IMG/VR virus record: IMGVR_UViG_3300030107_002375
Coordinates: 1,461-24,800 of that record
Length of the DNA: 23,340 bases
Origin: a virus
Reading direction: 5' to 3' (one strand)
Part shown: piece by piece, positions 2,781 through 23,340 of the stretch
Layout: every line of letters begins with the position of its first letter
How positions within the stretch are numbered: position 1 is the first letter of the stretch
The notes under the pieces: model-generated
What the model was told of the DNA's origin: nothing
What the model saw: only the letters and a program-made list of their open reading frames with translations
Databases searched by the model: none
Made by a program: the position numbers and the translations under genes

Positions 2781-4778
2781 GTGGCACAGGCAAATGTAAA
2801 ACTTACTGTAGATGCCACTAATGCGACTAGAGCATTACAGGGAGTACAAAATAAAACAAACTCATTACAAAAGTCATTTGGTGGACTAAAGACTGCCATT
2901 GCTGGAATCGGACTTACTGTTTTAGCAAGACAGGCAGTAAATACAGCAGCAAATTTTGATAAATTAAATGTCCGTCTAAAATTACTTACAAAAGCATCTG
3001 GCACTTTTGCAAGGTCGCAAGAGATAGCTGCTAATGCACAGAAAGCTTTTGGCCTAAGTGCCACAGAAGCACTTGAAGGAATAACAGATATAACAGCAAG
3101 ATTACAACCTTTGGGAGTTGGTGTTGAAGATATTAAAAGCACTTTCTTTGGATTTAATACAGCAGCAAAATTAGCTGGTGCTTCATCAATAGAGGCATCT
3201 AACGCATTTCGACAGTTAGCACAGGCACTAGGTTCTGGAAGATTACAAGGTGATGAATTTAGAAGTATATCTGAACAAATACCAACCTTATTAGGCCCTA
3301 TTTCTGAAGAATTAGGAGTAACAGTCGGTGAACTTAAAAAGTTTGCATCTGAAGGTAAATTGACAAGTGAAGTTGTTTTAAGAGCATTACGCAAAATTGA
3401 GACAGATGGTGCATCATCACTTAAAGCTTTAGTAGCCGCAGATCCGACTCAAGTTTTTAAAAATTTATCAAATGCAACTGAAGATTTAGCTAGAGCTTTT
3501 GGTGAAAAACTAAACCCTGTTGTCATGCCAGCAGTTAAAGGCTTAACAGATTTAACATTAGCGGCTGTTGAATTTTTAAATTCACCAATAGGAACTACAG
3601 CAGCAATATTTACAGGCATAGGTTTGGCAATTCAAGGAGTAACAACCGCAACAACATTGCTTTCTGCCGCACAGACGATTTTAGTTGCTAAATTTGCAGC
3701 GACTAAAGTTGGTGCAATCGCTCTTGCCAAGGCAGCAGCCACAGCAGATATAGCAACAAAAGCACTAGCGATCTCTACAGGGGCTTTAAGTATTGCTTTA
3801 AATGCTTTACCTCTGGTTGGTTTGGCTACTTTATTAGGAGTTGCTACAACTGCGATAATCAAACATAATCAAGAACAGAAAAAATTTAATGAGTTAGTCA
3901 AAGGAGGATCTGAGGAAGAAGTTGCTAAAGCTTTAGAAAAACAATTAGATTTACAAAAAAAACTTATTGAAAGACGTGACAAAGCAAATGGGAGGTCAAA
4001 ACAAGGAATACAAAATAGACTTGATGAAGTTAATGCAGATATAGCTTTACTTGAAGGAAGAAATAAAGTTCTTGAAAAAGAAAAAGAGATTACAAAAGAG
4101 AAAGAAAAACAAGATGCTGCAAATAAAAAAATTCAAGAAGCACAGAAAAAACAAGAAGAACAAGCTGAAAAATTAAAAGATAAATATATGGAAATCGGTA
4201 AATCTATTGAAAGCGGTGTTGTTCAAAATCTTACTGATGCTGCAATGGGAACAAAAACTTTAGGCGAAGCAGCAATCAGTGTCTTGAATGATTTAAAACG
4301 TAAGCTTATAGAAGTTGCAATACAACAAGCAGTTTCTGGTTTGGGTAATTTTATAGGAAATACTCTTGTCAGTGCATTTACTAAGGGTGGTGGTCAAAGT
4401 TTTACAACTATGGGAGGTAAATCTTTAACAACTGCTTCGGGAACAAATATTGGAAAAATTGGTTTTATGCCGTCAAATCCAGCTTTTGTAGGAGCAAAAG
4501 CAAAGGGTGGGCCAGTATCTGCTGGTGGTGCATTTTTGGTTGGTGAGAAAGGGCCTGAGATTTTGCAGATGGGTTCAAGGGGTGGCAATATTATTCCAAA
4601 CAATGCTATTGGTGGAGGAAATACTACTAATAATATGATTACTGTAAATGTTGATGCGTCTGGTACTTCTGTTCAAGGAAATGGATCTGAAGCAGATCAG
4701 CTAGGAGGATTGATTGCCACTATCGTTCAAGCAACTATAATTGATGAACAAAGGGCTGGGGGTTTATTAAATAGATAA
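2781..4778 (+). CDS. Tail tape measure protein (665 aa)
   Basis: The protein opens with a variable segment, then a tape-measure N-terminal domain (about residues 45-210) with the run FRSISEQIPTLL and the motif GRLQGDEFRS, which is a strong signature of siphovirus tape measures. Two hydrophobic stretches follow (about residues 275-300 and 330-365), then a long lysine/glutamate coiled coil (about 370-475), and a glycine-rich C-terminal part with 'FLVGEKGPEIL' typical of tape measure ends. It sets tail length and is ejected with the DNA; by the usual scaling of about 0.15 nm per residue this length suggests a tail near 100 nm. The start is GTG; AAAGG at about 2764-2768 is a possible ribosome binding site. 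Confidence 0.92.
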   Translation: MAQANVKLTVDATNATRALQGVQNKTNSLQKSFGGLKTAIAGIGLTVLARQAVNTAANFDKLNVRLKLLTKASGTFARSQEIAANAQKAFGLSATEALEGITDITARLQPLGVGVEDIKSTFFGFNTAAKLAGASSIEASNAFRQLAQALGSGRLQGDEFRSISEQIPTLLGPISEELGVTVGELKKFASEGKLTSEVVLRALRKIETDGASSLKALVAADPTQVFKNLSNATEDLARAFGEKLNPVVMPAVKGLTDLTLAAVEFLNSPIGTTAAIFTGIGLAIQGVTTATTLLSAAQTILVAKFAATKVGAIALAKAAATADIATKALAISTGALSIALNALPLVGLATLLGVATTAIIKHNQEQKKFNELVKGGSEEEVAKALEKQLDLQKKLIERRDKANGRSKQGIQNRLDEVNADIALLEGRNKVLEKEKEITKEKEKQDAANKKIQEAQKKQEEQAEKLKDKYMEIGKSIESGVVQNLTDAAMGTKTLGEAAISVLNDLKRKLIEVAIQQAVSGLGNFIGNTLVSAFTKGGGQSFTTMGGKSLTTASGTNIGKIGFMPSNPAFVGAKAKGGPVSAGGAFLVGEKGPEILQMGSRGGNIIPNNAIGGGNTTNNMITVNVDASGTSVQGNGSEADQLGGLIATIVQATIIDEQRAGGLLNR

Positions 4779-5344
4779 TGGCAACATTTCCATCAATAAC
4801 TCCCACCTATGGGATGAGAAAAAGAAGCAGACCAAAAGTAAAGGTGTCACAGCTTGGAGATGGTTATGAATTTAGGGCTTTGTATGGGCTTCCTTTATCT
4901 CAAGACCCAAAAGTATATGATTTAACTTTTAACGTGTCTGAGACACAGGCAGATGTCATTGAAGCTTTTTTAAGAAGTAGAGTAAACGATCAGGCAAGTT
5001 TTACATTTACACCACCAGCAGAAGGATTTACAAAGACAGGTACATATTCGCAAAGTGGAACTACTGTAACAATTACTATTTCAAATCATGGGGTTGCTAT
5101 TGGTGATATTTTGACTATTGATTACACCACTGGATCTGCAACAGATGGTACTTTTGCTGTTGCGTCATCTGCCGATTCAAATACCTTTACTGTGACGGCT
5201 GCGGCAAGTGCTACCAATAGTGGAAATGTATCAATAACACTTTCTGGTGCTGGACAATATGTTTGTGATTCTTGGACAAAAACTATTCCATATAATGAAA
5301 GAGCCATAATCAATACTACATTTAGGGAGGTTTTTGAACCATAA
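4778..5344 (+). CDS. Minor tail protein, lambda gpM-like, with an inserted beta domain (188 aa)
   Basis: Residues 1-88 (from PTYGMRKRSRPKVKVSQLGDGYE to FTFTPP) and the end (YVCDSWTKTIPY ... FREVFEP) are the two halves of the gpM family (about 110 residues in lambda), a tail-tip protein that assembles where tape measure and tube meet. They are separated by an inserted domain of about 66 residues (89-154: TYSQSGTTVTIT ... HG ... GDILTIDYT ... NTFTVTA). The same domain is inserted in the next gene and in the J-like gene. The ATG overlaps the tape-measure stop by one base (TAATG). The split points fall in what should be a surface loop, so the M fold is probably intact. Confidence 0.85.
   Translation: MATFPSITPTYGMRKRSRPKVKVSQLGDGYEFRALYGLPLSQDPKVYDLTFNVSETQADVIEAFLRSRVNDQASFTFTPPAEGFTKTGTYSQSGTTVTITISNHGVAIGDILTIDYTTGSATDGTFAVASSADSNTFTVTAAASATNSGNVSITLSGAGQYVCDSWTKTIPYNERAIINTTFREVFEP
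5042..5239 (+). repeat. Inserted beta domain, copy 1 (in the gpM-like protein)
   Basis: Residues 89-154 of the gpM-like protein. Shared pattern with copies 2 and 3: T-Y-x-Q-S, a T/I strand, a conserved HG-x-x-[VI]-G turn, a [DN]-[YF]-T-[ST/A]-G-[SN]-x-x-D-G-x-[FY] stretch and a final NTFTVT strand. It resembles the short 'E1 FCCH-like' beta repeats often annotated in phage tail proteins. Confidence 0.8.
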
Positions 5345-6157
5345 ATGGCAACACCAACTGCTGAACTACAAGAACTTACCAACAAATCCATTATTGAATT
5401 ATATTCTGTTGAATTAAAAGCAGATGTTCATTATACAAAATCAGCAAAAACAGCTACATACAGTCAATCTTCATCAACTATCACTATTACCCTTAACTCA
5501 CATGGTTTTTCTGTTGGTTTGATTTTGAGTCTTAATTTTACCTCTGGTAATGGTATTGATGGAGTTTATACAATTCAAACTGTTGACACAAATACTTTTA
5601 CAGTTACTGGTACAACTTCACAATCAACAAGTGGTAATGTTTCATTTAACGTCAACTCAACAATATCAAATCCTACTGTTTACTTATTCCATGCTGGCAA
5701 TAACATGAAAGACAGTTTAGATATAATTTGGCAGTCAAATACATACACAAGGATTCCTGTAAAAGCAGATGGTTACAAATATACTGGCAAAGGCAAACTA
5801 CCTAGACCGACTTTAAGTTTTTCTAATTTGCTTGGAACTATAACTGCTATTTTGCAGCTAACAAATCAAACAACAGCTTTTTCTGATCTTGCAGGTGCAA
5901 AAGTGACTCGCAGACGTACTCTCAGTAGGTTTCTTGATGCAACAAATTTTCCAAGTAGCGTAAATCCGTATGGAACACCAGATGCTTCATCTGAATTGCC
6001 AAGAGAAGTTTATTTTATTGAACGAAAAACGTTAGAAAATAGAAACATAGTACAATTTGAAATGGTAGGGTCTTTTGATTTGTTTGGAGTTAATGCACCA
6101 AAAAAACTCGTGACAAGAGATGATTTTGCTGGTGTTGGTACGTTTGTAAATGGATAA
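5345..6157 (+). CDS. Minor tail protein, lambda gpL-like, with an inserted beta domain and no cysteines (270 aa)
   Basis: The flanks match the gpL tail-tip family: 'IIELYSVEL' at the start, then 'VYLFHAGNNMKDSLDIIWQSNTYTRIPVKADGY', 'LPRPTLSFSNLLGTITAIL' and 'GAKVTRRRTLSRFLD', ending 'PREVYFIERKTLENRNIVQFEMVGSFD'. A domain of about 64 residues (38-101), homologous to the one in the upstream gene, is inserted after the first strand. Without the insert about 206 residues remain, shorter than lambda gpL. The usual cysteine-containing C-terminal domain, which holds an iron-sulfur cluster in lambda gpL, is absent: there is no cysteine anywhere in the protein. It starts immediately after the preceding stop. 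Confidence 0.88.
   Translation: MATPTAELQELTNKSIIELYSVELKADVHYTKSAKTATYSQSSSTITITLNSHGFSVGLILSLNFTSGNGIDGVYTIQTVDTNTFTVTGTTSQSTSGNVSFNVNSTISNPTVYLFHAGNNMKDSLDIIWQSNTYTRIPVKADGYKYTGKGKLPRPTLSFSNLLGTITAILQLTNQTTAFSDLAGAKVTRRRTLSRFLDATNFPSSVNPYGTPDASSELPREVYFIERKTLENRNIVQFEMVGSFDLFGVNAPKKLVTRDDFAGVGTFVNG
5456..5647 (+). repeat. Inserted beta domain, copy 2 (in the gpL-like protein)
   Basis: Residues 38-101 of the gpL-like protein: T-Y-S-Q-S-S-S-T-I-T-I-T, the turn SHGFSVG, then NFTSGNGIDGVYTIQ and DTNTFTVTG. This is the same pattern as copies 1 and 3, placed in a different host protein and at a loop between the first two strands. Confidence 0.8.
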
Positions 6158-6866
6158 AATGTCTTGGAAAGAATCTTTTAAAAATTATGCAAAAAAGCAA
6201 GCACCTGATGAGGCTTGTGGTTTATTGGCAATAATAAAAGGTAAAGAAACTTTTTGGCCTTGTAAAAATTTGGCAGAAGGAAAATTTGAATTTTTTATAC
6301 TTGATCCTGATGATTGGGCTGAATGTGAAGATACAGGTGAAGTTATTGGTGTTATACATAGTCATCCTATAGGTGCTGCAACTCCTTCAGATACGGACAG
6401 GGCGGCTTGCGAACACTTAGGGTTTCCATATTATATTTATAGTATTGAACACGATCATTGGGAACACTTTGAACCTTCTGGATGGAAAGCACCTTCTCTT
6501 ATCGGTAGAAGGTTTATTTGGGGAAAATATGATTGCTGGTCAATAGTAACAGATTGGTTTAAGGAAAGTAAAAATATTGAGATTCCATACTGGACAAGGC
6601 CAAAAAAAATAAAAGATTTTATTAATAATCCAGAATTTGAATATGCTTTACCTAAATTAAATTTTATAAAACAAAAATCCACTGATGATATAAAAATTGC
6701 TGATGTATTACTTTTTCAATCAGTTACTGGTAATTTAGATCATGTAGCTATCTATATTGGTGATAACATGATATTAAATCATAATATAAAAGCTTTGAGC
6801 TGCAGAGAACCTTTAGACCTAAAATATCAACAAGCACTGAGAGGAGTTTACAGATATGCAGCTTAA
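6150..6866 (+). CDS. Tail assembly protein, lambda gpK-like: JAB/MPN metallopeptidase plus NlpC/P60 (238 aa)
   Basis: The N-terminal half is a JAB/MPN metallopeptidase with all zinc-site residues in place: Glu21 (DEACGLL), His70 and His72 (HSHP), Ser80 and Asp83. The C-terminal half is an NlpC/P60 cysteine peptidase with Cys129 (GKYDCWSIV), His198 (LDHVAIYIG) and a third polar residue near N210/H211. Lambda gpK has the same order of domains. The protein acts at the tail tip, probably cutting peptidoglycan and/or processing a tail protein. It overlaps the L-like gene by 8 bases and the I-like gene by 11, so all three are likely coupled. An in-frame ATG three codons later is also a possible start. 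Confidence 0.92.
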   Translation: MDKMSWKESFKNYAKKQAPDEACGLLAIIKGKETFWPCKNLAEGKFEFFILDPDDWAECEDTGEVIGVIHSHPIGAATPSDTDRAACEHLGFPYYIYSIEHDHWEHFEPSGWKAPSLIGRRFIWGKYDCWSIVTDWFKESKNIEIPYWTRPKKIKDFINNPEFEYALPKLNFIKQKSTDDIKIADVLLFQSVTGNLDHVAIYIGDNMILNHNIKALSCREPLDLKYQQALRGVYRYAA

Positions 6867-7446
6867 AAAAATAAAAGTTTATGGAAAATTAAGACAGTTT
6901 TTGGGTAAATCATATTTTGAAGCTGCTGTCAGATCACCACAGCAAGCCATGAGTTTTCTTATGGCAAATTTTGAAGGCTTGCAAAAACACATGAATGATC
7001 AATTTTATAAAATTAAAATGGGTGGAAATGATATTACAGCAGATTATTTATCAATGTCTGGACAGGGTGATATACAAATAATACCAGTTGCATCTGGTGG
7101 CTTACCATTTGTTATTGGTGCTGCTGCAATTGGTGGTGGTGCTGCTTTAACTGCTGCTGCCGCTGCTGGTACATTTTTGGCAACTCTTGGTACTGCTTTA
7201 ACAACTGTCGGGGTTTCTATGGTTATAGGAGGGGTAGTGGAAATGATAGCCCCACAACCTAAATTAGACATACCATCCATAAGTGATATTGACCCAAGAA
7301 TTAGAGGTTCATATTCGTTTAACGGCATCCAAAACGTAAATTCTAGTGGTGTTCCAATACCAATAATTTATGGCCTTGTTTTTAGTGGGTCAATTTTGAT
7401 ATCTTCTGGTGTAGATACTGCACAAATTAAAAAAAGTATTACCTAA
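6856..7446 (+). CDS. Tail assembly protein, lambda gpI-like (196 aa)
   Basis: Residues 1-80 have the pattern of the lambda gpI N-terminus, a ubiquitin-like beta-grasp unit: 'KKIKVYGKLRQFLGKSYFEAAVRSPQQAMSFLMANF' followed by 'GDIQIIPVASGG'. Next comes an alanine/glycine-rich hydrophobic stretch (about 85-135), then a conserved C-terminal part with 'GSYSFNGIQNVNSSGVPIPIIYGLV'. That last motif is typical of gpI and of the start of tip proteins. It is placed between the K-like and J-like genes, as in lambda, and overlaps J by one base (TAATG). It is needed for tail-tip assembly, though its exact job is not known. Confidence 0.9.
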   Translation: MQLKKIKVYGKLRQFLGKSYFEAAVRSPQQAMSFLMANFEGLQKHMNDQFYKIKMGGNDITADYLSMSGQGDIQIIPVASGGLPFVIGAAAIGGGAALTAAAAAGTFLATLGTALTTVGVSMVIGGVVEMIAPQPKLDIPSISDIDPRIRGSYSFNGIQNVNSSGVPIPIIYGLVFSGSILISSGVDTAQIKKSIT

Positions 7447-10400
7447 TGCCTAAATTAGTTGACGATCAATTATTTGGAGGTCAACCTGATGAAAAGGTTG
7501 TTGATCCTGATTTAATAGATGGGGGTTTAAGGTCTAAACAGTTTGCAACAGTTGTTGATTTACTAGGTTATGGTGAAATCGATTCAATATTTGATGAAGG
7601 TGGAGCTGGTACCGATACTTTCAGAAAAAATATTTTTTTAGATTCTACTCCACTACAAAACTCTCTGGGTGAAGAAAATTTTCAAAATGTTGAGGTATTT
7701 TTTAAAAATGGTACAAGCGATCAGACAGCAATACAAGAAATCAATGCGATAGAAAATACCATCCCTGTTGGTGTTGCTCTAACAAACTCTCCTTTTACTA
7801 CTACACAAACAGCAACTTATACTATATCGTCTAAAAATAATTTTGTCGTTAGCGGTGTTACTCTTCAAAAAAATCAAATGCTTGTTACCTTCAGCAGTCC
7901 ACATGGATATGCTGTTGATGAAGTTGTACACTGTATAAACACAACAACTTCTTTTAAAAATTTTACAAATAATCCTCAAACACAAAAAATTCTCTCACTT
8001 CCTACTACAAGTAGTTTTGTAATAGATACAGATTTTGACCTAAGTAAAAAGAAAGAAGGTGACTGCGAGGTTAAAACAAGTGTAGGTTTATCAAGGCAAA
8101 TTTCAGATACAAATGTTGATAAGGTCAGAGTTACTTTACAGTTTCCGGTCTTACAGAGAATTAAAAATAATGGAGACATTGTAGGAACCAGTGTGAATAT
8201 CTCTATAAGAATTACAGAAAATGACGGTACTGTAACTAATCCTGTGATTTTGAATACTACAGATGGTAAGGCTAAAAGTCCATATTTAAAAGATTACGAA
8301 ATTGTTTTTTCTAAAACAATGAGTTTTCCCTTAACATTAACTGTTTTCAGAAATACTGAAGATGCAACAAGTGATAAATTACAAAATCTCACAAACTGGT
8401 TTAGTTACACAGAAATAAATACAGATACAAGTGCTTATCAAGGTTTTGCTTATGTCGCAGTAAGATTTAATGCACAAGAATTTGGAAGATTTCCAAAGCG
8501 TATGTATAGACTTAAAGGAACAAAAATTAAAGTTCCGCATGGAACAACAATAGACAGTACAAATGGAAGGGTAATTTATCCAGATAGCTATACATTTAAT
8601 GGAACATTTAAAACGGACAAAGAATGGTGTGCTGATCCAGCTTGGATTTTATATGACATCTTGACAACAGATAAGGGTTTTGGCGGTGATGATGGAATAG
8701 TACAAGAAGAAAATTTAGATGTTTTTAGTTTTTATTCTGCAAGTGCTTATGCAAGTGCTTTAATAACAGATCCAATAACAAACACAACAGAACCTAGATT
8801 TAGTTGCAATATAATTCTAAATCAAAGACAAGATGCCTATTCCTTAATTAATGATCTTTGTTCTGTTATGAACGCGATGCCATTTTACAGCAATGGTACT
8901 TTGCAAATTTCTCAAGATAGACCAACAAATACCACTACTAATACTTCAGATGTTCAGTACATTTTTAACAATACAAATGTAACTGAGGAAGGTTTTAGTT
9001 ATCAAAACCAATCTGCAAGACTTAAATATACAGAAGTGGAGGTTCAATATTTTGACAATCAAACTCAAACAATGGAATACGAATTGGTGAAAGCTGATCA
9101 AATTACTGCTCTTGGCTCCACCTCAGGTAACTTGGATGCTATTAATAAATTTGGAGCAACTAGAAAAACAATAAAAGCTTTTGCTTGTACTTCTATTGGT
9201 CAGGCAAATCGTCTTGGAAGATGGTTTTTATATTCAAATTTGTTAGAAAATGAAGTTGTTACTTTCACAACAACATTAGAAGCTGGGGTAGTTGTAAGAC
9301 CAGCAACAATTATTGGAATTGCAGATTCGGTTAGATCAGGAACAAGAAAAGGTGGGCGGATAAATACAGGTGTATCTACAACACAAATTATTGTTGATGC
9401 AAGCACTATTGAAGGAAATGATTTAACACATGATTCTGGTGCAACTTTAGCTGTTGTTTTGGCGGATGGATCAACTGAAAGCCGCACGATTTCTTCTATT
9501 GATGGCACAACCATTACTGTATCTTCTGCATTTTCATCAATTCCACAAGCTAACAGTGTTTATGCAATCGAAAGTTCAGCAACACAATTACAAATTTTTA
9601 AAGTTGTCGGTGTTGAAGAAAAAAACCATTGTGAATATACAATTACTGCTGTCATACATGACACAAATAAATATGGACAAGTAGAAGATACAACAGTCGC
9701 ATTTAATCCAAAAACAATTACAACCTTGATAAATGAGGTATCAGCACCAAGCAACTTAACAGCTACAGAAGAAATTGTTGTTTTAAACAATAGAGCCGTT
9801 TCAAAAATATTTATATCATGGCAACCTATTAAGGGTGTTAAAGAATATTTAGTTGAGTTTCAATTTGAAAATAATAATCCCGAAAGACTAAGAGTTGCTA
9901 GGCCAAGTTTTGAATTATTTGAATCAACATTAGGAACATATAAATTTGCAGTAAAATCTTTTAACACATTAGGAGTATTAAGTTCAGATACGTCAACATT
10001 TACTTTTACTGCTGTTGGTAAGACAGCTTTACCAGAAGATCCTAGCGGTTTGACTTTAGAACCTGTCTCAGATCAGTTTGTACGACTACGTTTTAACCCC
10101 TCTACCTCTGTTGACGTTTTGCATGGTGGCACAATATCAGTAAGGCATACTCCTTCTGTTGATAAAACAACAGCTACATTTGAAAATTCAACAGAAATCA
10201 TACAAAAACTTTCTGGAAGCGTAACAGAAACATTAGTTCCAGCTTTGACAGGGACTTACAGTATTAAATTTATTGATGATGGTGGTCGTAAATCTGAAAA
10301 CGCTGCAAGAATAATTGTTACAGAACCAGATCCACAACCAAATCAAATTATTTTAACTGAAAATGAAGATACAGATTCACCACCTTTTCAAGGAAATAAA

Positions 10401-11384
10401 GTAAATACATTTTTTGATTCAGCTTTAGATGGCCTGTTACTTGATGGAACATTATTAATAGATGATGTAACACAAGATATTGACGATTTATCAAATATTG
10501 ATTTTGCTGGCCCTATAAATTCAAGTGGTTCTTATGAGTTTCAAAATAAAGTTGATCTGGCAGCAATATTTAATTTAACTTTAAAAAGAAGATTTCTTAC
10601 TTTTGGAATTTTACCTAATGATCTTATTGATTCAAGAACCGCAAATATCGACACATGGACTGAATTTGATGGAACCAAAGCAGAAGATGTAAATGCAAAA
10701 TTATTAGTCGCTACAACTGATATTGATCCAGCAACTTCAGTGTCGGCTACTTATGAGCAAAGCGGAACTACTATAACAATCACAAAAAGTTCGCATGGGT
10801 ATTCTGTAGGCGATTTTGTTGTAATAGATTTTACTGCTGGTAGTGCAACTGATGGTAATTATGAAATTCAAACTGTTCCATCTACAAGCACATTCACTGT
10901 TACTTCAGCTACAAGTGCAACAATTTCAAGTGGTACATCTTGTACTTATGGAGCAAACTTCACGCAATTCAATACGTTTGCAAACGGAGAATATAAAGGA
11001 AGAGGATTTAAATTTAAAGCAGAACTTTCATCAGACGACCCAGCACAAAACATCAAAATTGAAGAGCTTGGATTTGAAGCAAGTGTTAAGCGTAGAACAG
11101 AAACAGTAAATACAGCAATCGCTAGTGCTTGTGCAACAAATAGTTCAGCTAAAACAGTTACATTTGGTGATCCGTTTTTTACAGGCACTAGCTCTCTTGG
11201 AGGATCAACAACAGCATTTTTACCAACGATAGGAATAACGCTTGAAGGTGCGGTATCTGGTGATTATTTCAAAATAACATCTGTTACAGGCACACAGTTT
11301 GTTATAGAAACAAGAGACAGCAGCAATAACTTTAAAGATTTAAGTTTTAAATATACAGCAATAGGGTTTGGTAAAGGTGGGTAA
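7446..11384 (+). CDS. Tail tip attachment protein, lambda gpJ-like host specificity protein (1312 aa)
   Basis: This is the largest protein of the window and follows K and I, as in lambda. The first 60 residues carry 'DGGLRSKQFATVVDLLGYGEID', characteristic of gpJ. The central part has 'FPKRMYRLKGTKIKVPHGT' and 'DPAWILYDILTTDKGFGG', both gpJ signatures, then the phage tail tip module. A fibronectin type III-like unit spans about residues 763-855. Residues 1102-1167 hold a third copy of the inserted beta domain found in M and L. A weaker related unit (about 147-195) contains HGYAVDE and TSSFVIDT. The C-terminal region after the FN3 unit should bind the receptor and is the least conserved part. 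Confidence 0.92.
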   Translation: MPKLVDDQLFGGQPDEKVVDPDLIDGGLRSKQFATVVDLLGYGEIDSIFDEGGAGTDTFRKNIFLDSTPLQNSLGEENFQNVEVFFKNGTSDQTAIQEINAIENTIPVGVALTNSPFTTTQTATYTISSKNNFVVSGVTLQKNQMLVTFSSPHGYAVDEVVHCINTTTSFKNFTNNPQTQKILSLPTTSSFVIDTDFDLSKKKEGDCEVKTSVGLSRQISDTNVDKVRVTLQFPVLQRIKNNGDIVGTSVNISIRITENDGTVTNPVILNTTDGKAKSPYLKDYEIVFSKTMSFPLTLTVFRNTEDATSDKLQNLTNWFSYTEINTDTSAYQGFAYVAVRFNAQEFGRFPKRMYRLKGTKIKVPHGTTIDSTNGRVIYPDSYTFNGTFKTDKEWCADPAWILYDILTTDKGFGGDDGIVQEENLDVFSFYSASAYASALITDPITNTTEPRFSCNIILNQRQDAYSLINDLCSVMNAMPFYSNGTLQISQDRPTNTTTNTSDVQYIFNNTNVTEEGFSYQNQSARLKYTEVEVQYFDNQTQTMEYELVKADQITALGSTSGNLDAINKFGATRKTIKAFACTSIGQANRLGRWFLYSNLLENEVVTFTTTLEAGVVVRPATIIGIADSVRSGTRKGGRINTGVSTTQIIVDASTIEGNDLTHDSGATLAVVLADGSTESRTISSIDGTTITVSSAFSSIPQANSVYAIESSATQLQIFKVVGVEEKNHCEYTITAVIHDTNKYGQVEDTTVAFNPKTITTLINEVSAPSNLTATEEIVVLNNRAVSKIFISWQPIKGVKEYLVEFQFENNNPERLRVARPSFELFESTLGTYKFAVKSFNTLGVLSSDTSTFTFTAVGKTALPEDPSGLTLEPVSDQFVRLRFNPSTSVDVLHGGTISVRHTPSVDKTTATFENSTEIIQKLSGSVTETLVPALTGTYSIKFIDDGGRKSENAARIIVTEPDPQPNQIILTENEDTDSPPFQGNKVNTFFDSALDGLLLDGTLLIDDVTQDIDDLSNIDFAGPINSSGSYEFQNKVDLAAIFNLTLKRRFLTFGILPNDLIDSRTANIDTWTEFDGTKAEDVNAKLLVATTDIDPATSVSATYEQSGTTITITKSSHGYSVGDFVVIDFTAGSATDGNYEIQTVPSTSTFTVTSATSATISSGTSCTYGANFTQFNTFANGEYKGRGFKFKAELSSDDPAQNIKIEELGFEASVKRRTETVNTAIASACATNSSAKTVTFGDPFFTGTSSLGGSTTAFLPTIGITLEGAVSGDYFKITSVTGTQFVIETRDSSNNFKDLSFKYTAIGFGKGG
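10749..10946 (+). repeat. Inserted beta domain, copy 3 (in the gpJ-like protein)
   Basis: Residues 1102-1167 of the J-like protein: TYEQSGTTITIT, turn SHGYSVG, then IDFTAGSATDGNYEIQT and STFTVTS. It is closest to copy 1 (both have SGTT[VI]TIT and GSATDG), which points to copying between the M and J genes or a shared recent source. Confidence 0.8.
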
Positions 11385-17966: not shown

Positions 17967-18191
17967 TTAAAAGGGTTCAATGGGTGTAATGCCGTTTGCT
18001 TCTTCCCAAGCAAGGACTTTGTGTAGGTCATATCTGACTCTAGGATCACCATAAGAGACAGCAAAGATAGGAAGTTCATAGTACTCAGGCCCTATACCTT
18101 TGTACCGCCATCTTCTTATGGAGTCTGGGTGCATACCATATCTCTTGGCGAGTTGATCGGTAGAGAAATACTGGCTGCCAGCTACTGTCAT
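17967..18191 (-). CDS. Helix-turn-helix DNA-binding protein, excisionase/MerR-like (74 aa)
   Basis: The sequence 'YFSTDQLAKRYGMHPDSIRRWRYKGIGPEYYEL' (about residues 8-40) is a winged helix-turn-helix of the type seen in AlpA/Xis-like proteins: the turn is 'RYGMHPDS' and the recognition helix 'SIRRWRYKG'. The second part ('RVRYDLHKVLAWEEANGI') is the typical 'V-x-Y-x-x-x-[DE]-[VL]-x-x-[FW]' end of such small DNA binders. Phages use these as excisionases or repressors; no integrase is in the window. The ATG overlaps the upstream TGA (ATGA). It could be the regulator of the promoters upstream of 20426, which is untested. Confidence 0.8.
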   Translation of the reverse strand: MTVAGSQYFSTDQLAKRYGMHPDSIRRWRYKGIGPEYYELPIFAVSYGDPRVRYDLHKVLAWEEANGITPIEPF

Positions 18192-18805
18192 GTTTTGATT
18201 ACCTCTTTTCTAGTTTTGATTAGGTCGCAAAGATCGTTGTAATCGTTTTGCGGTATTTGTTTGTTAGCATAACGTACCTCTAAGGACTCAGCACATTTAT
18301 CTAGTCTTGATCTGGTGTCAGCTTTTAAGATTGCATCTTTGGCAACTACTGTAAGGTTTTGAGTAGAAACAGGAGTCCTATCTTTTTTAGGATTTTTCCA
18401 TGCTTTAGTGCGGTCATATAAAGATAAACCAAACTGGGAACCAAACTGCATAAAAGCCCGCTTTCTGGCATCTGATTCAGCCTCTTTTACTGCTGATTCA
18501 TGCTTGTCTCCAAGATTGACGCTTTTTCCTTTGCCATGTCCAGCACCAACTCCCTCTCTAATAACATCACCTATAGTCACTCTGACTTTTGCAATGTAAG
18601 TTACACAGAACTCATCACTCTGCACACAGTCAAGCTGTACTGTTTCTGACTGCCAGCCATCAAATCCAAAGATGCGGTTAGCTTCATTAATTACATACCA
18701 GCTTTCTAAGTAAGCAAGTTGCATACTGCCTTGTTGTCTGAAGGCAACAACTTTAGGATCAATGGGTTGATTAAGTTGTTTTGTTTGTTCTTTTGTAAAT
18801 GTCAT
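18188..18805 (-). CDS. Rad52-type single-strand annealing protein (205 aa)
   Basis: The conserved Rad52-family core is clear: 'YLESWYVINEANRIFGFDGWQSE' (about 32-54), then strands leading to 'EGVGAGHGKGKS' (glycine turn, near residue 83-95), and 'KEAESDARKRAFMQFGSQFGLSLYD' (about 107-131), the helix/turn typical of annealing proteins of this fold. These form rings that anneal complementary single strands for phage recombination and replication. Two starts are possible: ATG 18811 (MVMTF...) and ATG 18805. The second overlaps the upstream TGA as ATGA, the coupling mode of this operon, so I prefer it. The adjacent exonuclease would supply the single strands. Confidence 0.9.
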   Translation of the reverse strand: MTFTKEQTKQLNQPIDPKVVAFRQQGSMQLAYLESWYVINEANRIFGFDGWQSETVQLDCVQSDEFCVTYIAKVRVTIGDVIREGVGAGHGKGKSVNLGDKHESAVKEAESDARKRAFMQFGSQFGLSLYDRTKAWKNPKKDRTPVSTQNLTVVAKDAILKADTRSRLDKCAESLEVRYANKQIPQNDYNDLCDLIKTRKEVIKT

Positions 18806-19638
18806 AACCATTTAGGGGGTGTAAGTGTTTTGATGCCCTTTGGTTCATAGTTGGTGTAACCTTTCCAGATGCCTGACTCTTGGGCGTTTTTGATGTCAGA
18901 CAAAGTTTGTTCTTGTAGTTCATAACCACGTTCAATAAAGTGGGGTGACAGTTCATAGATCCCCACGCTAAATGGGAATACCTTTTCAACAGCGACAAAA
19001 ATAAATCTCTTTTGACCTGTCCCTTGAAGATAATGTGCAGCTTGTAAAAAATACTTGAATGAAGCAATAGTTCTAGTAAATACATCTGGTGATGCACCAC
19101 CTTCCCCTGTGGTTTTGAGATCAATGACCATATCATCAATCACATAATCACAACGGCATTTGCATTGCAAGCCTGTTTCCCTATGCTTCCACCAGTAAGA
19201 CTGCTCTGCTAATCCTCTGGTATCTCTCAAAGTATCTGAAATAATGTACTTGTTTGCAAATTCGTTATTACAAAGAGCCTTATAAATACCAGTAAGAGTA
19301 TCCATTTCTAGAGTTGTAAAAGTTTCAATACCTTTTTCTTGCAAAGCAAGAGCTGTTGCCTTACCAGCTTTTGTTCTTTTATCATCAAGCAAGGCATAAG
19401 AACCCTGAAAAAGTTGAGGTTCTAAACAATACTTGTGACACATTGATCCAAACTTCATTGCTGGTGTTGCAATTCTGGGAGGATTGTTCTTGCCATACTT
19501 ATAGATGTTAAAAGCCTCAAGGCCATGATCTATGGCATATTTCAAGTCAGAGGCAGCAATTGCTGGATCTGATCTATACACTTGTTCGTCAATATCAACT
19601 GACGTAATGTGTGGTGTGGTGTTGTTTAAAGATTCCAT
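18802..19638 (-). CDS. RecE-like PD-(D/E)XK exonuclease (278 aa)
   Basis: I start at ATG 19638 (MESLNN...); a longer in-frame extension to 19833 only reads the adjacent gene in another frame. Nuclease residues: His68 (FGSMCHKYCLEP), Glu145 (GLAEQSYWW), Asp164 (CRCDYVID), Asp173 and Lys175 (VIDLKTT), then a Gln/Tyr motif 'YFLQAAHYLQG'. This is the RecE C-terminal / DUF3799 pattern: a 5'-3' double-strand DNA exonuclease that leaves 3' single strands for an annealing protein. It is coupled to the Rad52-type gene by an ATGA overlap, so the two are a Red/RecET-like pair. 'GLQCKCRCDY' holds three cysteines in the core, fewer than RecB/AddB-type clusters. Confidence 0.9.
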   Translation of the reverse strand: MESLNNTTPHITSVDIDEQVYRSDPAIAASDLKYAIDHGLEAFNIYKYGKNNPPRIATPAMKFGSMCHKYCLEPQLFQGSYALLDDKRTKAGKATALALQEKGIETFTTLEMDTLTGIYKALCNNEFANKYIISDTLRDTRGLAEQSYWWKHRETGLQCKCRCDYVIDDMVIDLKTTGEGGASPDVFTRTIASFKYFLQAAHYLQGTGQKRFIFVAVEKVFPFSVGIYELSPHFIERGYELQEQTLSDIKNAQESGIWKGYTNYEPKGIKTLTPPKWL

Positions 19639-19696
19639 TTTGTTATAGTAATGGTGTCCTCTGGTGTTAGGACAATGGGTGGAGTACTGGTAGAGA

Positions 19697-19867
19697 TCAG
19701 GGGTGGTCTTTACCAGTATTTTTTTTGACAATTTCATCAAGTTCAAGAATTGCTTGCTGTGTGGTTTCCATTTGCTTAAGAAGTCCATCTGTAATTTTAA
19801 GTAAAGATCTTTGATTACTTTCAAGATCAGCAAGCCTTTGCTTTATGCGTGTCATTTCAAAGGTCAT
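19697..19867 (-). CDS. Small coiled-coil protein upstream of the exonuclease (56 aa)
   Basis: I choose ATG 19867, which has GGAG eight bases upstream and overlaps the TGA of the preceding gene (ATGA); a TTG at 19885 would only read back into that gene. The 56-residue chain is one long helix: 'EMTRIKQRLADLESNQRSLLKITDGLLKQMETTQQAILELDEIVKK'. It lacks cysteine and tryptophan. Short coiled-coil proteins near recombination genes are often of unknown function, and I cannot assign one here. The following 58 bases to the exonuclease start contain AGAGGA about 20 bases upstream of that start. Confidence 0.6.
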   Translation of the reverse strand: MTFEMTRIKQRLADLESNQRSLLKITDGLLKQMETTQQAILELDEIVKKNTGKDHP

Positions 19868-20893: not shown

Positions 20894-21274
20894 ATGACAC
20901 CAACTTTTGAAGTTTTCCAGATTGAACTTACAAGCAATGAAAGAGATATTCATGCCTTGTATAAAAATGATAGAAAAAGGGAAAACCAAGAATTTGCCAC
21001 AGCTGCATTAATAAAAGCTATAAATGAAGAAGTTGATGGCAAAAAACTTGTTAAATCAAAACTTTGGAAGGCAAAAGACCATGATGCCTTGTTAGATAAG
21101 ATTATGAAAAAAACTAATTGTAATATTGATGAAATAAATTTTTGGGAATTTAGAGAGGATAATACATATAATGAACTTTTAAAAGATCCATTTTATGAAT
21201 TTCACGAAAAAAGAATCAGAGAAGATATAGAAAGAGAGGGCGATCTTGACAAGCTATATGAAGGTCTTGAATGA
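20894..21274 (+). CDS. Acidic helical protein upstream of the methyltransferase (126 aa), unknown
   Basis: A good GGAGG (20881-20885) lies eight bases before the ATG. The protein is almost all helical and highly charged ('NERDIHALYKNDRKRENQEFATAALIKAINEEVDG', 'RIREDIEREGDLDKLYEGLE'), with an internal 'INFWEFREDNTYNELLKDPFYEFHEKR' aromatic part. It overlaps the methyltransferase start (ATGA). I do not recognise it. A small acidic protein next to a DNA methyltransferase might be an inhibitor or mimic, but nothing here shows this. Confidence 0.6.
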   Translation: MTPTFEVFQIELTSNERDIHALYKNDRKRENQEFATAALIKAINEEVDGKKLVKSKLWKAKDHDALLDKIMKKTNCNIDEINFWEFREDNTYNELLKDPFYEFHEKRIREDIEREGDLDKLYEGLE

Positions 21275-22194
21275 AAAAATTAAAAATGATTGATCTATTC
21301 AGTGGCGGTGGAGGTTTCTCTTACGCTGCTGAAAAACTTGTTGGCGGTTATGAAACAACACAATTTGTTGAAATTGATTCATACTGTCAAAAAGTATTAA
21401 AAAAACATTGGCCTACTGTTCCTATCCATGACGACATCAAAACCTACAAACCAAAACCGCACTCAGCTTCAGTTATCGTTGGGGGGTTCCCTTGTGTCGA
21501 CATCAGCAACGCAGGGCGTAAACAAGGCATCACCAAAGAAACAAGGTCAGGTCTTTTCTTTGAACTTATGCGAGTCGTTAGCTTGGTTCGACCAAAATAC
21601 ATTATCTTGGAAAACGTGGCAGCGATCACTTATAACGGACTGGGAATCGTACTTGGGGAGCTTTCCCAGAGAGGGTTTAATGTTGAATGGGGAACTTTTC
21701 GAGCAAGCGATTATGTCAATGCCTGTCACCACAGAGACAGATGGTTTGCAATTGGAATCAATAGAGAATTTACCGACTCCAACTACAATGGATCATCTTC
21801 CACCAAGAAGTCAGGAGGCATTAAAAAGACAAATGAAGGGATCGAGGAAGGGCAGAACTCAACTTGGAACCTTGAGAGAAGCGGTCAATCCCAAAAGTCA
21901 GGAAATGTTCAAAAAAATGCTTCCGACTCCTACATCAAGAGATTACAAAGGGAGGCAGAAAGAGGGATACAGAGACAGGGGTTATGGCCCGAACCTACCA
22001 GATGCCTTGACCCATTCTGGAGACAATGGGGTATTGAACCCCAGATTTATAGAAATGATGATGGGGTTTCCTTTGGATTATTCACAAATCGAGCAAGCCG
22101 ATTAAAATTATTGGGAAATGCAGTGATTCCAGCCTGTGCAGCAATTCCTTTACAACGTGTTTTGGATTTAGAAAATGACTCAAGACAAACTTGA
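21271..22194 (+). CDS. dcm: C5-cytosine DNA methyltransferase (307 aa)
   Basis: All diagnostic motifs of the m5C methyltransferase fold are visible: motif I DLFSGGGGFS (8-17) for S-adenosylmethionine, motif IV GGFPCVDIS with catalytic Cys75, motif VI ENV (114-116), motif VIII HHRDR with Arg155 and Arg157, and motif X LGNAVIP (281-287). It transfers a methyl group to C5 of cytosine and probably protects phage DNA from host restriction. No restriction gene is beside it. The region where the target recognition domain should lie (about 165-245) is a Ser/Asn/Lys-rich low-complexity run. The same DNA encodes a second protein-like frame (21428-22105). The stop overlaps the next gene by 20 bases. Confidence 0.92.
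   Translation: MKKLKMIDLFSGGGGFSYAAEKLVGGYETTQFVEIDSYCQKVLKKHWPTVPIHDDIKTYKPKPHSASVIVGGFPCVDISNAGRKQGITKETRSGLFFELMRVVSLVRPKYIILENVAAITYNGLGIVLGELSQRGFNVEWGTFRASDYVNACHHRDRWFAIGINREFTDSNYNGSSSTKKSGGIKKTNEGIEEGQNSTWNLERSGQSQKSGNVQKNASDSYIKRLQREAERGIQRQGLWPEPTRCLDPFWRQWGIEPQIYRNDDGVSFGLFTNRASRLKLLGNAVIPACAAIPLQRVLDLENDSRQT
21428..22105 (+). CDS. Overlapping reading frame inside the methyltransferase gene, family resembling phage 'LPTPT ... LNPRF' proteins (225 aa)
   Basis: This frame is +1 to the methyltransferase and covers its residues 53-279, yet has no stop for 225 codons in AT-rich DNA. Its protein has features I recognise from proteins found near phage cytosine methyltransferases: 'SLAWFDQNTLSWKTWQRSL', 'GSFPREGLMLNG', repeated 'LPTPT' (113-ish and 165-ish) and 'LNPRFIEMMMGFPLDYS' near the end. 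The methyltransferase's own 'TDSN' and 'SDSY' are the same bases as the two LPTPT phrases. No Shine-Dalgarno sequence precedes the ATG. That it is expressed is an inference; sequence alone cannot tell if it is made or only looks protein-like because of the methyltransferase frame. Confidence 0.55.
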   Translation: MTTSKPTNQNRTQLQLSLGGSLVSTSATQGVNKASPKKQGQVFSLNLCESLAWFDQNTLSWKTWQRSLITDWESYLGSFPREGLMLNGELFEQAIMSMPVTTETDGLQLESIENLPTPTTMDHLPPRSQEALKRQMKGSRKGRTQLGTLREAVNPKSQEMFKKMLPTPTSRDYKGRQKEGYRDRGYGPNLPDALTHSGDNGVLNPRFIEMMMGFPLDYSQIEQAD

Positions 22195-22384
22195 ATACCA
22201 GTTCAAAAAAGCTTTTTTGGAGCAAGAGGAAGGAAAGTTTATTGACTACCTTTGTGAAAAAAGGACAAGGCCAGAGGTAGTTGCTGCAATAGAAAAAATT
22301 GCTTTGATTAACTTACAAATAAAAAATTGTGACGATATTATCTATACAGCAAATGTTCCAGAATTTGATGATCCTTTGAATTAA
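22175..22384 (+). CDS. Small helical protein after the methyltransferase (69 aa), unknown
   Basis: The ATG lies 20 bases inside the end of the methyltransferase gene. The protein is a charged helix bundle-like chain ('LEYQFKKAFLEQEEGKFIDYLCEKRTRPEVVAAIEKIALINLQIKNC'). The C-terminus ends 'VPEFDDPLN'. There is no recognisable family. It could be needed for methyltransferase stability or be an unrelated small phage protein. There is no gap before the next gene, other than 30 bases without clear features. Confidence 0.55.
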   Translation: MTQDKLEYQFKKAFLEQEEGKFIDYLCEKRTRPEVVAAIEKIALINLQIKNCDDIIYTANVPEFDDPLN

Positions 22385-22991: not shown

Positions 22992-23340
22992 TTAGTTTTT
23001 AATTGTTCTGATTTTTATATCAGCACCAGTTCCAGATTCTGTTTCGCAATACTTTTTGACAGCGTGTAAACTTACAACTTGGCTATCGTCAGCAAATGCG
23101 GATTTAGTGAGAGAATCCAGTAAGGCTCTGCAATGTTTATCCAGATCACCCTTGTTTTTGTTGGTGATATAAACAGGGGCAGCTTGACGCACCATGCCAT
23201 TTGGGAGATAGTGCTTTTGCGGCCTTTTAAAAAAGAAACTTACCTCAATTTCAACTGGTTCTAATATTATATCGGTCACAATCAACTTCGCCCTCATTTC
23301 CACCTGTTTTCGCCATGATTTTAGACGTTTACTTGTCTCA
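22992..23340 (-). CDS. rusA: RusA-type Holliday junction resolvase, 5' end beyond the window
   Basis: The frame stays open to the end of the window; upstream of a GTG at 23303 it reads ETSKRLKSWRKQV, matching the 'SKR-x-K-x-[WY]-R' start of RusA proteins, so the true start lies outside. Catalytic acidic residues are in place: in 'KGDLDKHCRALLDSL' Asp53 and Asp55 (numbered from the GTG) and the later 'ADDSQV' pair Asp72/Asp73, as in RusA D70, D72, D91. RusA cuts four-way DNA junctions and is common in lambda-like phages. The stop is TAA at 22992-22994. Confidence 0.88.
   Translation of the reverse strand, partial: ETSKRLKSWRKQVEMRAKLIVTDIILEPVEIEVSFFFKRPQKHYLPNGMVRQAAPVYITNKNKGDLDKHCRALLDSLTKSAFADDSQVVSLHAVKKYCETESGTGADIKIRTIKN

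Follow-up and report, generated by a model that had tools for sequence, protein, structure and literature searches.

A phage C5-cytosine methyltransferase gene with a conserved nested frame that may encode a second chain of the enzyme

Long dual-coding genes are thought to be rare in DNA phages, and gene callers penalise overlaps. The stretch of DNA analysed here (the window: 23,340 nucleotides, bases 1461-24800 of a 28,915-base virus record) contains a cytosine methyltransferase gene in which a second frame stays open for 225 codons, and the question is whether that frame is itself a gene and, if so, what its product contributes to the enzyme encoded around it. The methyltransferase frame (alpha) lies on the plus strand at 21271..22194 and encodes a C5-cytosine methyltransferase of 307 aa with motifs I-VIII and X, as identified by PF00145, PHROG_363 and an AF2 model. 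In the ORF list, an upstream gene (20894..21274, plus strand) has a stop that overlaps the alpha start in the sequence ATGA, which suggests translational coupling of the two. A small downstream gene (22175..22384, plus strand) starts within the end of alpha and matches PHROG_35960, of unknown function (E = 7e-10). Elsewhere in the window the phage carries lambda-like tail genes (tape measure, minor tail protein and tail fibre J; 2781-11384), an exonuclease VIII with an Erf/Rad52-like annealing protein (18188-19833) and a RusA-like resolvase (22992-23303), and scans with Rfam and for tRNAs returned nothing.

The nested gene (beta) is an ATG ORF of up to 225 aa at 21428..22105 on the plus strand, spanning methyltransferase residues 53-278 in the +1 frame; its assignment draws on PHROG_1008, on a homologue in Synechococcus phage S-H1 and on the depletion of stops. 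The phrases singled out in the initial annotation (WKTWQRSL, GLMLNG, two LPTPT and LNPRFIEMMMGFP) were all found in the nested product. The longest open run at the window locus is 234 codons in the +1 frame and 44 in the +2 frame. When the synonymous codons of the gene were shuffled among themselves, 3 of 20,000 trials gave a +1 run as long, and of 20,000 draws from phage codon usage none did; the 225-codon frame reported initially is thus present and exceeds chance.

Selection on the frame was measured across 164 related loci by a stop test that conditions on each alpha protein and its codon usage over motifs IV-VIII. Only 15 stops were observed in the +1 frame where 498 were expected, a contrast between frames that is still very large even though the loci are kin and not independent trials. 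The frame was open over the whole of this region in 154 loci (14 expected), which bears out the proposal that the two frames have been kept together. The +2 control frame was flat (842 observed, 854 expected), and 38 canonical C5 methyltransferases had 172 stops in the +1 frame against 190 expected; as these canonical enzymes show no depletion, an open +1 frame is not general to C5 methyltransferases. After motif VIII, the alpha frame contained 125 stops where 935 were expected from the nested protein, and high counts were confined to split loci or to loci whose nested ORF outruns alpha. A chance open frame at the window locus is ruled out by the shuffles, the stop depletion and the canonical methyltransferase control, and on these sequence data we take the nested 225-codon frame to be a gene.

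Substitution rates were compared in 318 pairs that were 80-97.5% identical; in this arrangement the first position of an alpha codon is the third of a nested codon. At alpha positions 1, 2 and 3 the mismatch rates were 0.098, 0.033 and 0.225 before the overlap, 0.124, 0.071 and 0.258 over motifs IV-VIII, 0.247, 0.072 and 0.071 from motif VIII to the nested stop, and 0.057, 0.025 and 0.305 past the nested stop. In ten-codon bins, constraint switches to the nested frame at alpha residue ~164, just past motif VIII, and returns to alpha at ~274, the site of motif X (RASRLKLLGNAVIPACA; 22090..22140, plus strand), with the third-position dominance of substitutions restored in frame 0. This switch was repeated in four lineages: the window's own group, Acinetobacter, Pseudomonas and Micavibrio-type. 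The initial annotation had suggested that, midway along the gene, constraint may fall on the nested frame, and this holds for alpha residues ~164-273, where the rate is 0.247 at nested position 3 and 0.07 at nested positions 1 and 2. It does not extend to motifs IV-VIII, where the methyltransferase frame dominates and dual constraint is seen only near a stretch at 21605..21691 (plus strand; ENV..QRGFNVEW in alpha, SWKTWQRS..GLMLNG in the nested frame). There the alpha third-position rates drop to 0.14-0.22, and alpha residues 114-143 look constrained in both frames.

Within the cassette families of beta described below, identity was 0.47-0.67 in the nested frame and 0.21-0.45 in the alpha frame, the latter similar to the unused third frame. 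The corresponding alpha stretch (residues 172-273; 21784..22089, plus strand) is of low complexity, is predicted to be unfolded (AF2 pLDDT 40-59) and is conserved no better than an unused frame. With constraint in the nested frame and alpha identity at the level of an unused frame, the low-complexity run of the methyltransferase is a passive reading of beta. The gene is dual-coding, the arrangement is conserved, and constraint switches from one frame to the other along its length.

These measurements also bear on the idea that the amino acids and codon usage of alpha leave the +1 frame open as a by-product. In favour of this idea, alpha third positions over motifs IV-VIII are nearly as free as outside (0.258 vs 0.225), with parts of the nested sequence there following from the alpha motifs. 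The shortfall of +1 stops (15 vs 498), the flat control frame, the undepleted canonical enzymes and the nested constraint after motif VIII all speak against it, and we give this explanation scarcely any credence; for the part after motif VIII it is refuted by the nested-frame constraint found there.

The nested product matches PHROG_1008 ("DNA methyltransferase") over protein residues 4-196 (E = 1.6e-17), and the same profile matches Shelly gp56 and the betas of phiBT1 and locus L154. Relatives of the nested product were found by tblastn in 65 phage records, the closest being Synechococcus phage S-H1 (E = 1e-24), in which the nested frame is unannotated and lies in the +1 frame of the phage's methyltransferase. 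When viral contigs were searched with a small alignment, at least 417 relatives came up, of which 80 were kept, and 80 of 118 relatives from bacterial genomes were kept as well. The nested homologue was in the +1 frame of a C5 methyltransferase at 176 of 176 loci and was nested in full at 163. Viral loci were also fished with the alpha catalytic domain only, which removes the bias of a nested-protein query, and 80 of 80 had a nested homologue in the +1 frame. Relaxed-specificity methyltransferases of Paracoccus phages (PMC3925955) were weighed as potential tested relatives and set aside, no link having been established.

None of the loci examined had a nested homologue separate from a methyltransferase gene, with six plasmid hits falling outside the frame check. 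The initial annotation had assigned the phrases of the nested product to separate phage proteins; this was mistaken, as all examined homologues lie inside or overlap a methyltransferase gene, and because no homologue was seen outside such genes those proteins are taken to be the same nested family. The initial annotation had listed the lack of an outside homologue as counting against a nested gene. None was found, and we read this as a partner subunit tied to its gene and not as an independent protein that was borrowed; a nested frame broken in close relatives, the other sign it had named, was not encountered, and the frame stays open there. At two loci (L102 and L134) alpha has a single in-frame stop in its passive linker, with the nested frame intact and motif X on a separate downstream ORF. 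In Mycobacterium phage Llama (L178, 1342-2260) the methyltransferase and nested readings both shift frame at one mid-gene point; this locus is annotated as two genes, and other phages are annotated alike.

Alpha matches PHROG_363 (E = 1.3e-59) and PF00145 (E = 2.2e-36; profile positions 1-227 of 324, the match stopping at 227), and its sequence match to M.HhaI ends at residue 169 and covers only motifs I-VIII. The methyltransferase frame contains motifs I, IV, VI, VIII and X, and a stretch of low complexity separates VIII from X, in agreement with the initial description of intact motifs and a low-complexity run replacing the target-recognition domain. Motif IV (GGFPC, with the catalytic Cys; 21481..21495, plus strand, frame 0) was located by sequence, and G72, P74 and C75 are invariant in 64 alphas. 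The AF2 model of alpha has the C5-methyltransferase fold, with M.HhaI closest (Z 25.0, rmsd 3.1, 221 aligned), and its pLDDT is ~95 over residues 1-171, 40-59 over 172-275 and ~90 over 275-307. In this predicted structure alpha is without a confidently folded target-recognition domain. The window alpha departs from the canonical single-chain layout, in which motifs I-VIII share a chain with the target-recognition domain and motif IX, and a pattern scan of 176 alphas found motif X in 164 and motif IX in none except one indel case.

The missing motif appears in the nested chain. At 150 of the 176 loci the motif IX pattern was present only in the nested frame and X in alpha, and at 5 split loci IX and X were both nested. 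In the window, the motif-IX-like helical segment of beta (LNPRFIEMMMGFPLDY; 22034..22081, plus strand), which is missing from the alpha frame, was recognised by pattern scan and by way of split homologues, the direct profile comparison being weak. The alpha frame of phiBT1, Samora, Upyo, L039 and L154 stops early and has no motif X, and it is the nested frame that closes with IX-X, at near-canonical spacing; Medusa is alike. Loci whose small chain carried both IX and X were only L002, L003, L004, L039 and L154, plus L177. The IX-X region of the split betas aligned with canonical IX-X by hhalign (Prob 91.8, E = 7.5e-7), a score to which X contributes (the canonical piece was cut at IX). The profile PHROG_116 is matched by the window alpha at 205-404 and by the phiBT1 beta at 409-495 (E = 1.5e-7). 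The presence of motif X in the nested frame of split relatives indicates that the two chains complement each other, and its movement between frames is the strongest comparative sign that they may form one two-chain enzyme.

Ahead of motif IX, beta consists of an N-terminal stretch shaped by the alpha motifs and then a string of cassettes, usually 1-7 per beta with a median of 41 residues, which open with (L/W)PTP followed by LNPxFVExxMGFP. The order in the window is M0-M1: cassette 1 (family M0; LPTPTTMDHLPPRS..GRTQLGTLREAV; 21770..21919, plus strand) belongs to a family seen in 80 modules and 53 neighbour contexts, and cassette 2 (family M1; LPTPTSRDYKGRQ..GYGPNLPDAL; 21920..22033, plus strand) to one seen in 21 modules and 12 contexts. 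Forty of 41 cassette families were found in more than one context. Near-identical alphas carry other cassettes, with another cassette and then M0-M6 in L088, M1 only in L091 and three cassettes in L094. Since modules swapped beside an unchanged catalytic domain are behaving as target-recognition domains do, we infer that the cassettes are such domains. Comparison of the cassettes with canonical target-recognition domains by hhalign was not significant (P 0.04), and single and profile searches of beta against PDB sequences returned nothing. The AF2 model of beta by itself was poor (pLDDT 63, pTM 0.33), and a structural search with it gave no fold match and is uninformative on the fold of beta. 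No in-frame fusion of alpha motifs I-VIII to cassettes was present among the collected loci.

Taken together, the data make it probable that the locus encodes a two-chain C5-cytosine methyltransferase in overlapping frames, with motifs I-VIII and X on alpha and the cassettes and motif IX on beta. We infer that beta is translated, from one message with alpha, and assembles with it. Alpha, in frame 0, would provide the catalytic domain (motifs I-VIII) and motif X, and beta would dock on alpha and supply motif IX and a DNA-reading surface, completing the DNA-binding half. The swappable cassettes of beta would choose the methylated sites, and methylation by the window pair would probably shield phage DNA from host restriction.

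Translation of beta could begin at any of three candidate starts read from the sequence. The ATG at 21428 has no Shine-Dalgarno sequence (duplex energy -1.5 kcal/mol). A GTG at 21494..21496 (plus strand) follows a purine-rich, Shine-Dalgarno-like GGGGGG and gives 203 codons (computed duplex energy -10.0 kcal/mol), and the ATG of GLMLNG at 21680..21682 (plus strand), with AGAGAGGG upstream, gives 141 codons (-7.0 kcal/mol); homologues commonly have an ATG at the latter position. Many homologues also offer a nested ATG only a few codons from where alpha starts, with a match to the Shine-Dalgarno sequence. This last feature argues against a programmed +1 frameshift after motif VIII, by which alpha motifs I-VIII would be joined to the cassettes and motif IX, with X coming from the unshifted product. 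A frameshift would account for the sharp constraint switch just past motif VIII and for the alpha of split phages ending there; however, the nested frame already avoids stops over motifs IV-VIII, far upstream, where a shift has no need of an open frame, and we consider this mechanism very unlikely.

A second class of loci (L315-L319 and L320-L399) has a +1 nested ORF of ~150 codons, with the pattern KYYLSxKACxGILRRAEKRGKxLPxxL, in canonical phage C5 methyltransferases. Members with motif IX in frame include Vibrio phage 24, Javan191, the P1-like Dmt, Caulobacter DMCA and a Ruminococcus phage. The alpha third-position rate in this class was 0.162 in the overlap and 0.442 outside, with signs of constraint in both frames. 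A locus from a bacterial genome (L314:1754-2311) has a +1 nested frame that resembles the second-class frame and carries a canonical-looking motif IX (YVRRMLPSEYEILQGFPEGWT); it weakly matches PF00145 at 173-295, and its alpha matches at 2-169. The second class keeps motif IX in frame together with a constrained nested ORF (KYYLSxKACxGILRRAEKRGK), so nested proteins may not all be subunits, and the notion that they began as non-subunits stays alive. For the window, this notion would make beta a real nested accessory or anti-defence protein with the methyltransferase gene as its carrier. We regard that as unlikely, given that window-class alphas are without motif IX or a folded target-recognition domain and that beta has motif IX, together with X in split phages.

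The nested pair is a recurring long dual-coding gene, found in at least 417 viral contigs and many bacterial genomes, and provides a clean natural example of two frames alternating under selection along one gene. As a second chain of the enzyme, beta would explain the many phage C5 methyltransferases that seem to have no target-recognition domain, and the specificity of such enzymes could be tested by producing the two chains together; a clone in which the nested frame is recoded or dropped would look inactive for a trivial reason. With somewhat less assurance, we favour the broader proposal that a large phage C5 methyltransferase family keeps shufflable target-recognition cassettes in an overlapping frame of its own catalytic gene, where only the nested frame is meaningful, and forms a two-chain, possibly multispecific enzyme. 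If this is true, each cassette swap must leave two frames open though only the nested one carries meaning. A description of phage-wide nesting was not found in a full-text literature search that covered few subscription papers. The breadth of the arrangement, the cassette strings in an overlapping frame and the measured constraint switch are new.

Among phages, the nearest annotated case is the gp55/gp56 pair of Paenibacillus phage Shelly, which has a homologous beta and is annotated as nested ("g55 internal gene"); this is an annotation note only, and the nesting is unmentioned in the papers checked. The label of PHROG_1008 is likewise silent on nesting and on the missing catalytic domain. 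Multispecific SPbeta-type phage C5 methyltransferases carry several short target-recognition modules in one enzyme. Those modules are in frame within one chain, whereas the window cassettes are in an overlapping frame.

M.EcoHK31I is part of a restriction-modification system that has a single specificity. Its small-chain ORF, of 176 aa, was reportedly placed by Lee et al. in 1995 inside the 309-aa large-chain gene in another frame. M.EcoHK31I and M.AquI are natural two-chain C5 methyltransferases (PMC3404938). In M.AquI, motifs I-VIII lie on one chain, and the distal variable region and IX-X on the other (PMC3404938). This division (M.AquI recognises CYCGRG) is shared by phiBT1, Samora, Upyo, Medusa, L039 and L154; in the window, by contrast, motif X stays in alpha, beta ends after IX, and the genes overlap over all of beta. 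In M.EcoHK31I the large chain has motifs I-VIII and X and the small chain only motif IX, with the target-recognition domain placed in the large chain by earlier authors (PMC3404938). The window pair resembles this enzyme (YGGCCR; isoschizomer M.EaeI) in having motifs I-VIII and X but no IX in alpha, and IX in beta. Its small-chain gene also lies inside the large-chain gene in another frame, as is said of M.EcoHK31I. It differs in that its nested chain has variable cassette strings and its alpha is without a folded domain at that place. The best reading is that the window pair would work like M.EcoHK31I, to which it is likened by described layout and not by sequence.
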